Assembly (NCBI RefSeq): GCF_016025255.1
Contig: NZ_CP065592.1
Location: forward strand, 2,126,122-2,190,121
Reading direction: 5' to 3'
Origin: Sphingosinicella flava
GTDB taxonomy: Bacteria; Pseudomonadota; Alphaproteobacteria; Sphingomonadales; Sphingomonadaceae
Length of the DNA stretch: 64,000 nt
A program made the position numbers and the translations under genes. Shown piece after piece: positions 13,582 to 16,882 of the stretch. The notes under the pieces are model-generated. The model saw only the letters and a list, made by a program, of their open reading frames with translations, searched no databases and was not told the DNA's origin. Position 1 is the first letter of the stretch; each line of letters opens with the position of its first letter.

Positions 13582-14507
13582 GCCGCCATACCGCCACCCA
13601 TGCCGCGCTGGCGAGTGTCGGAACCGCGCTCTTTCTGCTCTTCCTCAAGGGCTACGCGGCTTGGGCGACTGGATCGGTGGCGATGCTGGGATCGCTCGCC
13701 GACACCGGGCTCGACCTCGTTGCCTCACTTGTAACGCTGTACGGTGTGCGCCTTGCGGCAGAGCCTGCCGATGCGGATCATCGCTTCGGCCACGGCAAGG
13801 CGGAAGCGCTGGCGGCCTTGTTTCAGGTCACACTTATCACCCTGTCGGCGATGGGGATTGGCTGGCGGGCGATCAACCAATGGCTAACCGGGGCTGTGAC
13901 CAACGCGGCTGACGAAGGTATCGCAATATCCGTCATCGCGATGGCCGCGACCCTGCTTCTCCTAGCCTATCAGAAAAAGGTGATGGCGCGGACCAATTCC
14001 ATCGCGATCCGGGCTGACAATGTCCATTATCAGTCGGATCTTTTGCTAAATGCCGCAGTGATTGTAGCGTTAGCGCTTGACCAATATTTTGGGCTTACCG
14101 GCGCTGATCCGGTTTTCGGCATTCTCATTGCCCTCTGGCTAGCCTGGGGGGCTTGGAAAGCTTCCAGCCATGCCGTTGATCAGCTGATGGACAAGGAATG
14201 GCCTGAGGAGAAGCGCCGGCACTTCCTTGCCGTCGCCGCGCGCCATCCGGAGCTCAAGGGCATTCACGACTTGCGCACCCGTTCGAGCGGCACGCAGGAT
14301 TTCGTGCAATTCCACGTCTGGGTCGATCCGAATATGACCGTCGCCGAAGCGCATGACGTGATGGACGAGGTCGAAGCCAAGCTCGCCCGGGAATTTCCCG
14401 GCGTTGAAATTCTCATCCACCTCGACCCGGAAGGGCATGTCGACCATCCCGGCAATGCGCTGAAGGAAACCGACGAGAGCCGCCTCGCCAAAGGAGCAAC
14501 CCCATGA
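13578..14507 (+). CDS. cation diffusion facilitator family transporter (FieF-like)
   Basis: Protein of 309 residues with about six transmembrane helices followed by a cytoplasmic metal-binding domain. Helix 2 (MLGSLADTGLDLVASLVTL) and helix 5 (NVHYQSDLLLNAAVI) carry the Asp residues that bind the transported divalent metal. HRFGHGKAEALAAL is the CDF signature loop. The D-x3-D plus H-x3-D pattern is typical of Zn/Fe exporters of the FieF type. The start is GTG at 13578 inside the pdxH stop; ATG codons further in would remove helix 1. Confidence 0.92.
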   Translation: MSRHTATHAALASVGTALFLLFLKGYAAWATGSVAMLGSLADTGLDLVASLVTLYGVRLAAEPADADHRFGHGKAEALAALFQVTLITLSAMGIGWRAINQWLTGAVTNAADEGIAISVIAMAATLLLLAYQKKVMARTNSIAIRADNVHYQSDLLLNAAVIVALALDQYFGLTGADPVFGILIALWLAWGAWKASSHAVDQLMDKEWPEEKRRHFLAVAARHPELKGIHDLRTRSSGTQDFVQFHVWVDPNMTVAEAHDVMDEVEAKLAREFPGVEILIHLDPEGHVDHPGNALKETDESRLAKGATP

Positions 14508-15283
14508 CCAGCCTTCCCTTCATCCAGGTGGACGCTTTCGCCGACCGGCCCTTTGCCGGCAATCCGGCCGCGGTCATGCCGCTGGAGGAATGGCTGCCGG
14601 ACGATGTGCTGCAAGCGATCGCGCTCGAGAACAATCTCAGCGAAACCGCCTTCACCGTGCCGACGGAAGGCGATGCGGACTATGAGCTGCGCTGGTTCAC
14701 GCCGGCCACCGAAGTCACCTTGTGCGGCCACGCGACGCTGGCCAGCGGCCATGCCTTGATCGCGGGCGACCGCGTTCGCTTTCGCACGCGCAAGGCGGGC
14801 ATCCTGACCGTCGAGCGGCAGGGCGACGGCTATGCCTTGAGTCTTCCCGCCTGGAAGCCGGAGCCGGCACCGCTGCCGATCATCGTCGACGCCTTGGGCT
14901 GCAAGGCGATCGAAACGTTCTGGCATCTGCATCGTTACGGGCTGGTGGTGGTCGAAACCGCTGACGAGGTGTTGAATTTAAAACCCGACTTCCAGGCCAT
15001 GGCGAAGCAGGGCGACGTCCTTACCATCGTCACGGCGCCGGGCCGGGAAACCGACATCATCAGCCGGGTGTTCGCGCCGGGAGCGGGTATCGACGAGGAT
15101 CCGGTCACCGGCTCCGCCCATGCCGTGATGGTGCCTTATTGGGCGGAGCGGCTCGGCCGGGACAGCTTCACCGCCTTTCAGGCGAGCAAGCGCGGCGGGC
15201 ATCTCACCTGCCGCCTTGACGGGGACCGGGTGATCCTTGGCGGGCGGTGCGTGACGGTGATCGAAGGGCAATTCCGCCTCTGA
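14504..15283 (+). CDS. PhzF family phenazine-biosynthesis-like isomerase/epimerase
   Basis: Protein of 259 residues with the PhzF fold: N-terminal VDAFADRPFAGNPAAVM, catalytic Glu in NNLSETAFT (about residue 46), TLCGHATLAS, and the second-lobe motif DEDPVTGSAHAV. Members are diaminopimelate-epimerase-like enzymes, mostly of unknown substrate. There is no phenazine cluster here, so phenazine synthesis should not be inferred. It overlaps the CDF gene by 4 bases (ATGA) and closes the pdxH operon. Confidence 0.9.
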   Translation: MTSLPFIQVDAFADRPFAGNPAAVMPLEEWLPDDVLQAIALENNLSETAFTVPTEGDADYELRWFTPATEVTLCGHATLASGHALIAGDRVRFRTRKAGILTVERQGDGYALSLPAWKPEPAPLPIIVDALGCKAIETFWHLHRYGLVVVETADEVLNLKPDFQAMAKQGDVLTIVTAPGRETDIISRVFAPGAGIDEDPVTGSAHAVMVPYWAERLGRDSFTAFQASKRGGHLTCRLDGDRVILGGRCVTVIEGQFRL

Positions 15284-15302
15284 GGCCGAAAGGAGCTTGT
15301 GT

Positions 15303-15349
15303 GGGTCGCGAAGCCCGCTAAAGGACGCCGCGACCCTGTTTCGCAGGGT
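15303..15349 (+). terminator. overlapping hairpins just after the PhzF-like gene
   Basis: GGGTCGCG (15303-15310) pairs with CGCGACCC (15329-15336). The last four bases of that right arm are also part of a second stem, ACCCTG-TTTCG-CAGGGT (15333-15349). The two stems cannot form together. There is no T-run, so a strong intrinsic terminator is not shown; it may be the 3' end of the pdxH operon or the leader of the RNA downstream. Confidence 0.4.
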
Positions 15350-15429
15350 TCAATCTATCCCCGATATCCACGTTATCCACAGGCGGATTCCGCTTGGCGC
15401 GACTCATTTTCCGTGACAGCTTCTCGATG

Positions 15430-15908
15430 TGGCCGGGAACGGATGATCCGGAAACGGAAAGAAATTCCCGCCATGACCTGACGGAAACCAGCCCTGATCC
15501 TGCGAGGGAGACGGCGCGAAGGGACGGCAGGTCGGCCGGCAAGAACGGCCAGCGTCGAAGGCGGAAAGGGTGAAAGCCCGGCACATCTTGGACGCCGGCG
15601 ACCCGAACCGGTCAGCAGGTGGTAGGCTCAAGCGGCCGAAGCCCTGCAATGCCGAAGCGGCGCTCGACTTTTCCCTGGAAAAGGCGAGACAGCGGAGGCG
15701 GGCGGACAAGCCGCGAGTGGACGGCGCTGGAAATTGGAACCTCGTTCCTTTGGATGCGCGCAGAAGCTCAAGGCAAACGCCCGGCAGAGCAGAGGATCTT
15801 GAACCGAAGCCCTGCACAACCGCTCGAGGCACGAAACCGGCCGCAAGGCCGTGCGGAGAGCCCGGGACAAGTGGGAGCTGGTGGCGACACCAGCTCCCAT
15901 TTTCGTTT
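15430..15908 (+). ncRNA. candidate long structured non-coding RNA, family not recognised
   Basis: The stretch 15284-15950 has no convincing protein gene on either strand, but the + strand is packed with paired elements. CGGGAA/TTCCCG closes at 15434-15470. GGGT-GAAA-GCCC lies at 15568-15579. CTCG-a-CTTTTC-CCTG-GAAAAG-g-CGAG lies at 15663-15688. GGAAC-CTC-GTTCC lies at 15736-15748. GCAC...GGCC-GCAA-GGCC-GTGC lies at 15829-15854. Three loops are GNRA tetraloops. A 13-base direct repeat (CCGAAGCCCTGCA at 15636 and 15804) forms the right arm of two similar hairpins. The locus ends in a perfect terminator. It does not match what I remember of RNase P, tmRNA, SRP or 6S RNA. The 5' end is unknown. 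Confidence 0.5.
15872..15908 (+). terminator. intrinsic terminator with 12-bp perfect stem and GCGA tetraloop
   Basis: TGGGAGCTGGTG pairs perfectly with CACCAGCTCCCA around a GCGA (GNRA) loop, followed by TTTTCGTTT. It lies over 580 bases after the previous stop codon on this strand and directly before the osmC-like gene. It must therefore end a transcript that starts within the gene-free region, which supports an RNA gene there. Confidence 0.8.
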
Positions 15909-15950
15909 CGGGATGTTTCGGCTAGGGCTCTTCGCAAAGAGGAGGGACCG

Positions 15951-16412
15951 GTGGGCAGGCATATCGCGGTGGTGGAATGGTCGCTGGGCGACGGCAATTT
16001 CGCGCATGGCCGCTACAGCCGCGCCCATGCCTGGCATTTTGACGGCGGAGCCGAAGTGCGCGGCTCCTCCTCTCCTTCGGTCGTGCCCCTGCCCTGGTCC
16101 GATCCTGCGGGCGTCGATCCGGAAGAGGCGCTGATCGCCTCGGCATCGGCCTGCCACATGCTGTGGTTCCTCCACATTGCCTGCGACGCCGGTTTCGTCG
16201 TCACGCGGTACCGCGACGAGGCGGAAGGCACGATGGCGAAGGGAGCGGACGGAAAGATCGCGATCACCCGCATCGCGCTCCGGCCCGATATCGCCTTCGA
16301 AGGCACAGCGCCCAGCGCGGATGACCTCCACGACATGCATCACCGGGCGCACGATGCTTGCTTCATCGCCAATTCGCTGAAGAGCGAGATCGTCGTGGAA
16401 AGCGCCGGCTGA
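15951..16412 (+). CDS. OsmC family protein
   Basis: Protein of 153 residues resembling OsmC/Ohr-type peroxidase-fold proteins: DPEEALIASASACHMLWFLHIACDAG is the helix carrying the single conserved Cys, and DDLHDMHHRAHDACFIANSL contains the second conserved Cys near the C terminus. Family members reduce organic hydroperoxides or act on unknown thiol substrates. The start is GTG at 15951, preceded by a strong GGAGGG Shine-Dalgarno 5 bases upstream. A longer open frame extending into the RNA region has no conserved sequence and was not used. Confidence 0.87.
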   Translation: MGRHIAVVEWSLGDGNFAHGRYSRAHAWHFDGGAEVRGSSSPSVVPLPWSDPAGVDPEEALIASASACHMLWFLHIACDAGFVVTRYRDEAEGTMAKGADGKIAITRIALRPDIAFEGTAPSADDLHDMHHRAHDACFIANSLKSEIVVESAG

Positions 16413-16477
16413 GCGGGACAAGGCTCAACTCTCCCCCGGTGTTTCATGGTAGAATGACCGGGGAAAGGAGACCGGAG

Positions 16478-16882
16478 ATGAGTCGTATCCCGCATGCCCT
16501 CGCCTTCGCCGCGATGGCCCTGCCCGCATCGGCGGCCGCCCCGCCCGCCGGCCCCGACTGGAGCCAGGCGCGCCAGATCGAAATCGTGCTCGCCAACTTC
16601 GAATACCGGCCAAAGACGCTGACGTTGAAGGCTGGCGAGCCCGTCATCCTGACGCTCAGGAACCGGGCGGACAACGGCCACGATTTCACCGCCCGCACCT
16701 TGTTTCGCAAGGCCGCCGTGCGGAGCGGCGACATGCGCTATATCCGCGACGGCAGCGTCGAGGTGCCGCCTGGCGGGCACCGCTCGATCGGCCTGATCCC
16801 CGCCGCCGGACGCTATGGCGTGAAATGCACCCACAGCTTCCATCACATGCTGGGCATGGGCGGCGAAATCGTGGTGCAGTGA
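16478..16882 (+). CDS. secreted cupredoxin-domain (plastocyanin-like) protein
   Basis: Protein of 134 residues: a signal peptide (about 20 residues, ending ASAAA) and a blue-copper fold. Candidate copper ligands are the His in NRADNGHDF and the Cys, His and Met of KCTHSFHHMLGMGGE, giving the C-x2-H-x4-M type spacing. The FEYRPKTLTLKAGEPVILTLRN block is the usual first strand pair of periplasmic cupredoxins. It may carry electrons or store copper. The ATG at 16478 follows GGAG; an in-frame ATG at 16454 would put charged residues before the signal peptide. Confidence 0.82.
   Translation: MSRIPHALAFAAMALPASAAAPPAGPDWSQARQIEIVLANFEYRPKTLTLKAGEPVILTLRNRADNGHDFTARTLFRKAAVRSGDMRYIRDGSVEVPPGGHRSIGLIPAAGRYGVKCTHSFHHMLGMGGEIVVQ

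Follow-up and report, generated by a model that had tools for sequence, protein, structure and literature searches.

A stretch of 64,000 nucleotides of Sphingosinicella flava DNA (hereafter, the window) was analyzed, and between its PhzF gene (14504-15283) and an OsmC frame beginning at approximately 15951 (both identified by Pfam) there very probably lies a gene that encodes a large structured non-coding RNA, absent from Rfam 15 and distributed across the Sphingomonadaceae, as judged by comparing the locus with its relatives. Taking all the evidence together, we consider it probable that this RNA is activated by DnaA, tuned by GcrA/CcrM, coupled to replication and active in trans. Because its control region resembles those of genes that become active when DNA is replicated, the RNA may be part of how sphingomonads run their chromosome cycle; if this is true, a cell-cycle circuit that is mostly known from its proteins would gain an RNA layer. 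The RNA family appears to be new, with no relative in Rfam 15, while as a kind (large orphan RNA, cell-cycle RNA) it has precedents. The DnaA-box/GANTC promoter, the family-wide spread and the fast-evolving interior go beyond an earlier note on this DNA.

Locus Boundaries, Coding Capacity and Known RNA Families

That earlier note had described 15284-15950 as a locus without a credible protein gene that resembles an undescribed structured RNA. The RNA was upheld, while the coordinates had to be trimmed: together with its promoter, the gene occupies 15355-15903 (Table 1), 15284-15354 precedes its promoter block, and the OsmC frame starts approximately 48 nt past the 3' hairpin. The lack of a protein gene was borne out as well, as the longest plus-strand ORF of the RNA encodes 48 aa, compared to a shuffle mean of 78. 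Across 73 units from relatives, ORFs averaged 72 aa against 82 in shuffled sequences, with p < 0.05 in 2 of the 73, so that no ORF excess was found either in the RNA of the window or across the units, and a protein gene was rejected.

The Rfam search suggested by the same note was run with the covariance models of Rfam 15 (4227 families, membership being a score above the cut-off of the family). In window positions 14500-16800 no family rose above its cut-off (lowest E 0.67, sX12), and for 12 relative loci and 8 further ones all matches remained below cut-off; membership in any Rfam family was thus rejected. RNase P, tmRNA, SRP, 6S, OLE, GOLLD and ROOL are all Rfam 15 families. Moreover, no description of this RNA was present among the literature matches listed, in a search whose coverage mostly excluded subscription journals. 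Directly upstream of the promoter block, at 15303-15349, two hairpins, GGGTCGCG...CGCGACCC and CCCTG...CAGGG, could be observed, which are perhaps the terminator of the PhzF gene.

Table 1. Features of the candidate RNA gene (positions in the window).
Feature	Position	Strand	Details	Basis
Structured RNA	15429-15903	+	Approximately 475 nt	GNRA excess, conserved ends, covariation in relatives
5' domain	15429-15474	+	Outer helix 15429-15439 with 15465-15474 (one bulge); inner hairpin with GAAA cap 15451-15454	
GNRA loop	15502-15505	+	GCGA, 4-pair stem	
Hairpin	15568-15579	+	GGGU-GAAA-GCCC	
Hairpin	15838-15851	+	CGGCC-GCAA-GGCCG	
3' hairpin	15869-15902	+	Loop GCGA 15884-15887, then TTTT to 15903	
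Abutting 9-mers	15355-15381	+	CTATCCCCG 15355-15363, ATATCCACG 15364-15372, TTATCCACA 15373-15381	Conserved in promoter alignments
Upstream GANTC site	15386-15390	+	GATTC, less conserved	
Proposed -35	15394-15399	+	TTGGCG	Conserved CTTGG; our own assignment
GANTC (CcrM-type) site	15401-15405	+	GACTC, in the -35/-10 spacer	Conserved in relatives
Proposed -10	15417-15422	+	CAGCTT, 17 bp from the proposed -35; start site at approximately 15429	Conserved TGACAGCTT; our own assignment

Hairpins of the RNA in the Window

The earlier note had counted at least three GNRA-capped hairpins on the plus strand, and five with stems of at least 4 pairs were found in 15430-15905, where 0.46 are expected and none of 500 dinucleotide shuffles reaches five; the minus strand of the same interval has none. 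Folding energy alone is a modest signal, with z values of -4.76 for the 667 nt of 15284-15950 (20 shuffles), -2.51 for the RNA proper and -1.53 for its reverse strand. A perfect 12-bp terminator had also been claimed. The hairpin stands, with 12 perfect base pairs (15872-15883 with 15888-15899) inside 15 pairs including wobbles, and its role as a terminator is plausible rather than demonstrated: the T-run behind it is no longer than four letters, the hairpin was not among the terminators reported by the scan, and in many relatives ATTAC stands in place of the T-run.

Relatives and Distribution

BLASTN searches with the 667 nt matched 25 of 60 relatives, namely 24 of 26 genomes of the genus (its own included), one of 10 other family members and none of 24 genomes from other families. 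The alignable parts were mainly two, a 5' block (query positions of approximately 73-175) and a 3' block (approximately 580-629). For the 5' block, a sequence-only model built from 28 sequences (R1) matches 20 of the 21 genus genomes that are at least 90% complete, with one to three matches each. At the level of the family it matches 61 of 249 genomes, from 22 of 91 genera, a count that comprises weak matches to the boxes alone. In addition, a pattern scan of named genomes returned 61 stretches, mostly from Sphingomonas and Sphingosinicella, but also from Sphingobium and Hephaestia.

The two conserved ends occur together. Among 64 R1 matches in named genomes, 59 are followed on the same strand, at 295-1354 nt, by a match to a model of the 3' hairpin (R2), and the remaining five start less than 560 nt from the end of the available sequence. 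In the set gathered by R1 alone, the hairpin follows on the same strand in all 28 matches, which lie in 26 loci. Across units, the interior between promoter and hairpin is approximately 300 to 1350 nt long. Some loci contain tandem units (L100, L103, L116), and in three genomes inverted units lie a few kb apart (G018, G024, G025). Six of 27 loci lacked the hairpin by a simple pattern and were excluded from alignment A2 and from the units; eight duplicates were also dropped, which left the 73 units. Among 40 loci with weak promoter-model matches, the hairpin lies downstream on the same strand in 23 (weakly in L212) and is absent in 17, one of which (L217) is RNA-like by eye.

The hairpin model alone reaches further, to 143 of 249 family genomes and 57 of 91 genera (E ≤ 1e-6). 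Twenty hairpin-only loci, from 15 genera with no R1 match, were inspected. Exact TTATCCAC occurs on either strand approximately 400-680 nt upstream of the hairpin in 18 of them, the exceptions being L258, which has no TTATCCAC, and L259, which has variants only. Many show TTATCCAC, GTCCAC and an inverted GTGGATAA, followed by CTTG-CGACTC, and 13 pass a strict box-plus-core pattern. Raw counts, obtained without shuffles, gave 32 GNRA and 29 UUCG hairpins on the plus strand compared to 6 and 7 on the minus strand. As the same box, in different arrangements, precedes the same core and hairpin, these loci suggest that DnaA binding would be what is kept. In one genome of the genus (G019, 99% complete), neither the DNA query, nor either promoter model, nor the hairpin model found a match, and loss or strong divergence of the RNA is possible there.

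The genes that neighbor the RNA differ among relatives. A position upstream of osmC-like genes, proposed in the earlier note, did not prove general, as an osmC-like gene (by eye) precedes the RNA in L005 and other neighbors are found elsewhere. On the upstream side of the RNA, 14 units (L090, L095, L099, L101, L104 and others) adjoin a family of divergently transcribed proteins with a signal-peptide-like start, and seven other units have a neighbor that by eye is a UvrD-like helicase.

Structural Conservation with a Fast-Changing Interior

Interiors diverge fast: the 73 units fall into many BLAST clusters, and the RNA of the window stands alone. Nevertheless, the interior is under structural selection on one strand only, with compensatory changes. 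RNAalifold energies were 5.4 to 16.5 standard deviations below those of column-shuffled alignments in seven clusters (10 shuffles each; one cluster is a subset of another). In a 9-sequence alignment, paired cells make up 92.5% and both sides have changed in 29 of 70 pairs, values that none of 500 shuffles reached; sliding the partners destroys this signal, which is favored by the structure having been derived from the same alignment. Compensatory pairs showed no excess in cluster C3 (5 against a control mean of 4 and maximum of 7) and a modest one in C4 (28 against 19 and 24). Overall, this analysis in other sphingomonads, which had been suggested together with the Rfam search, revealed strong covariation, and both results support the proposal of an undescribed structured RNA.

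For the window itself, direct covariation is limited to the 3' hairpin, and the evidence otherwise comes from the relatives. In 22 sequences, that of the window included, 5 of 14 pairs of this hairpin are changed on both sides (reached by 1 of 500 shuffles; the number of cells changed on both sides by none), the window having A-U in place of one G-C; the number of pair types does not exceed that of shuffled alignments, 233 of 500 of which attain it. Tetraloop hairpins in the 73 units show the same strand preference, with 258 GNRA hairpins on the plus strand where 39 are expected and 18 on the minus strand where 25 are expected, and with 151 UUCG hairpins against 5 expected and 12 against 7, respectively. 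K-mer enrichment likewise returned tetraloop hairpins and no clear protein-binding motif.

At the other end, the outer helix of the 5' domain starts no more than 3 nt from the same point, the predicted start site, in 17 of 19 folded units (exceptions, L019 and L016). In different units the domain is an outer helix around an inner hairpin, written in different letters; MAFFT misaligns the outer helix, and its pair count was thus left out. In alignment A5, columns 133-201 (L018, L123, L141, L010 and others) hold a stem, conserved in this one subgroup, whose internal loop, GAAGAAGCGYGAGGC / GCCG...CCCAC/ATTT, is strongly conserved and resembles a protein-binding internal loop.

A Likely Replication-Coupled Promoter

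The 5' block has a constant order: two 9-mers like TTATCCCCG, then TTATCCACA, CTTGG-CGACTC and TGACAGCTT, after which the RNA begins. In the window, the third 9-mer is a perfect DnaA box, found once in the 64 kb against 0.04 copies expected, and the two outer ones are weak-box-like. In the available excerpts of two reports, TTATCCACA is the classical DnaA box and a weak W-box consensus is given (PMC8203912, PMC4285127), the weak W-box of Caulobacter being TCCCCA (PMC4285127, excerpt); the outer 9-mers often include the closely similar TCCCCG. The boxes are the most conserved letters of the unit. In most Sphingomonas units they lie approximately 10 bp further upstream than in the type of the window's genus, a difference between subgroups that preserves the helical phase.

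Motif frequencies were taken from alignment A3, which comprises 28 promoters from BLAST matches to the window and was hence gathered by similarity, because the pattern-scan set of named genomes had been selected by TTATCCACAG and GCGACTC. In A3, 27 of 28 promoters have TTATCCACA at a conserved place upstream, and all 28 have GANTC in the -35/-10 zone, the free base always being C or A, as expected for what would be a conserved methylation site. Moreover, in a set collected with only the promoter model, 23 of 24 rows have CGACTC (exception, L076). The reverse complement of the GANTC site, TGAGTCG, fits the extended GcrA motif YGAKTCK, as given in the available part of PMC7987155, and GcrA is encoded in the same genome (E 2.9e-44). 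No TTAA occurs in 15341-15430, and hence no CtrA box (TTAA-N7-TTAA), and a plain consensus scan returned no sigma-70 promoter in this region. Altogether, these motifs make a replication-coupled promoter likely.

Other Occurrences of the Boxes

In the same genome, TATCCNCRTTATCCACAG is found with up to two mismatches in three places: at this locus (no mismatch), between URO-D (hemE) and PPSR/Maf (one mismatch, box TGATCCACA) and upstream of a ribonucleotide reductase gene (two mismatches), with genes assigned by Pfam. The neighborhood of hemE is the Caulobacter type of origin, according to the available part of PMC8959179, and gene order thus points to the hemE/PPSR/Maf locus as the putative replication origin. 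It lies at 1835.7 kb of the contig and the RNA at 2141.5 kb, approximately 306 kb apart, and an origin at the RNA locus was rejected on this basis.

A broader promoter model (R3, 64 sequences) matches 72 of 297 genomes of the order, all but one in the family of the window, and 12 of 337 genomes of the class, the present one included. Nine loci were taken from 9 of the 11 outside genomes; according to Pfam, three of them precede GapR and two precede DnaB, and a sixth is situated between hemE and PPSR. Judged by eye alone, L174 is DnaB-like, and L173 and L178 have the neighborhood of the GapR loci. The tandem DnaA-type boxes that precede gapR and dnaB in these other alphaproteobacteria (L170, L172, L176, L171, L175) suggest a wider class of DnaA promoters. 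Within the family, eight proteins downstream of the 17 weak matches that lack the hairpin were scanned with Pfam: DnaB (two), ribonucleotide reductase, PPSR, fumarase (two), a response regulator and one without a family. A tblastn search with two short protein pieces found nothing in the 40 weak-match loci, in two of which Pfam found DnaB. The box motif marks many replication genes, but not exclusively, since fumarase and a response regulator also lie downstream of boxes. The tandem boxes of family members L195 and L196 are approximately 300 nt upstream of fumarate hydratase, which has no obvious link to replication.

Proposed Mechanism, Known Systems and Alternative Explanations

Based on these results, DnaA bound at the upstream boxes would activate the promoter, and the CcrM (GANTC) site in the -35/-10 spacer would be read by GcrA, so that transcription would be tied to replication initiation and to fork passage. 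The RNA would then fold into a stable multi-hairpin body and act in trans, either as the scaffold or decoy of a bound protein or through base pairing with chromosome-cycle mRNAs. We infer this trans action, as well as the RNA being neither a leader nor an antisense RNA of its neighbors. Cultured species carry the RNA, for instance Sphingomonas trueperi (L101), S. mali (L120) and Sphingobium boeckii (L105), and the promoter predicts the timing of its synthesis. More broadly, this structured RNA, spread across much of a bacterial family, shares a promoter motif with replication genes, and it is a large RNA with a quick turnover of its interior while promoter, 5' domain and 3' hairpin persist.

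Several known systems resemble parts of this picture, here compared as far as the available excerpts of the cited works describe them. CcnA, a cell-cycle non-coding RNA of Caulobacter crescentus (PMC8959179), is likewise an alphaproteobacterial non-coding RNA tied to the DnaA/GcrA/CtrA cell cycle. However, CcnA is located at the origin, and CtrA is its presumed activator, whereas the present RNA is far from the origin-type locus, has a promoter without a TTAA half-site, and differs in size class, with no listed family. EcpR1, an sRNA of Sinorhizobium meliloti that works in trans by way of a pairing loop (PMC4414408), also acts on cell-cycle genes, dnaA and gcrA, but no resemblance between the two RNAs was noticed, and its promoter and fold differ from those found here, as judged from its description. 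OLE, GOLLD and ROOL are large, highly structured bacterial RNAs of unclear function (PMC12286853, in the excerpt available), from which the present RNA is set apart by the lack of an Rfam 15 match and by different hosts, promoter and architecture. Finally, DnaA activates the ftsZ, mipZ and gcrA promoters of Caulobacter, several of which have DnaA boxes (PMC8203912, available part); those promoters make proteins, while the present one would make a structured RNA.

A regulator of the antisense type, which like CcnA or EcpR1 would pair with cell-cycle mRNAs, instead of a protein-binding RNA, is a reading that we deem possible, if on the unlikely side. It has precedents in alphaproteobacteria (PMC8959179, PMC4414408, as excerpted) and is in agreement with the replication-type promoter, but the RNA is much longer, is packed with stable hairpins and has little single-stranded sequence conserved across subgroups. 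A body that changes fast and is rich in tetraloops suits a protein-binding scaffold or decoy no less well than an antisense RNA. We also put forward, tentatively and with some doubt, that sphingomonads use a family-wide large RNA, fired by DnaA and timed by GcrA/CcrM, to run their chromosome cycle: it would belong, as the RNA component, to a replication regulon whose other products are ribonucleotide reductase, DnaB and GapR, and would offer a replication or nucleoid protein a folded scaffold or decoy, its shape and amount outweighing its sequence, so that the body evolves fast.

It is very unlikely that the locus is a datA-like site for DnaA titration or timing with transcribed filler, in which the boxes matter and the RNA does not. 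Although the letters conserved best are those of the boxes, and an interior evolving fast over approximately 300 to 1350 nt could be taken as filler, compensatory changes, strand-specific tetraloop hairpins and a conserved 3' hairpin need selection on the RNA, and the locus has three boxes only. A cis-acting leader of the osmC-like gene, to which the frame close behind the hairpin might point, is highly improbable and was rejected on the differing neighbor genes of relatives and the reversed order in L005; moreover, the hairpin closes the unit before the OsmC frame. Chance structure in GC-rich intergenic DNA, with which a folding energy of the RNA only 2.5 standard deviations below shuffles would agree, has a negligible probability in view of conservation across genera, covariation, the strand bias of the tetraloops and the co-occurrence of promoter and hairpin.
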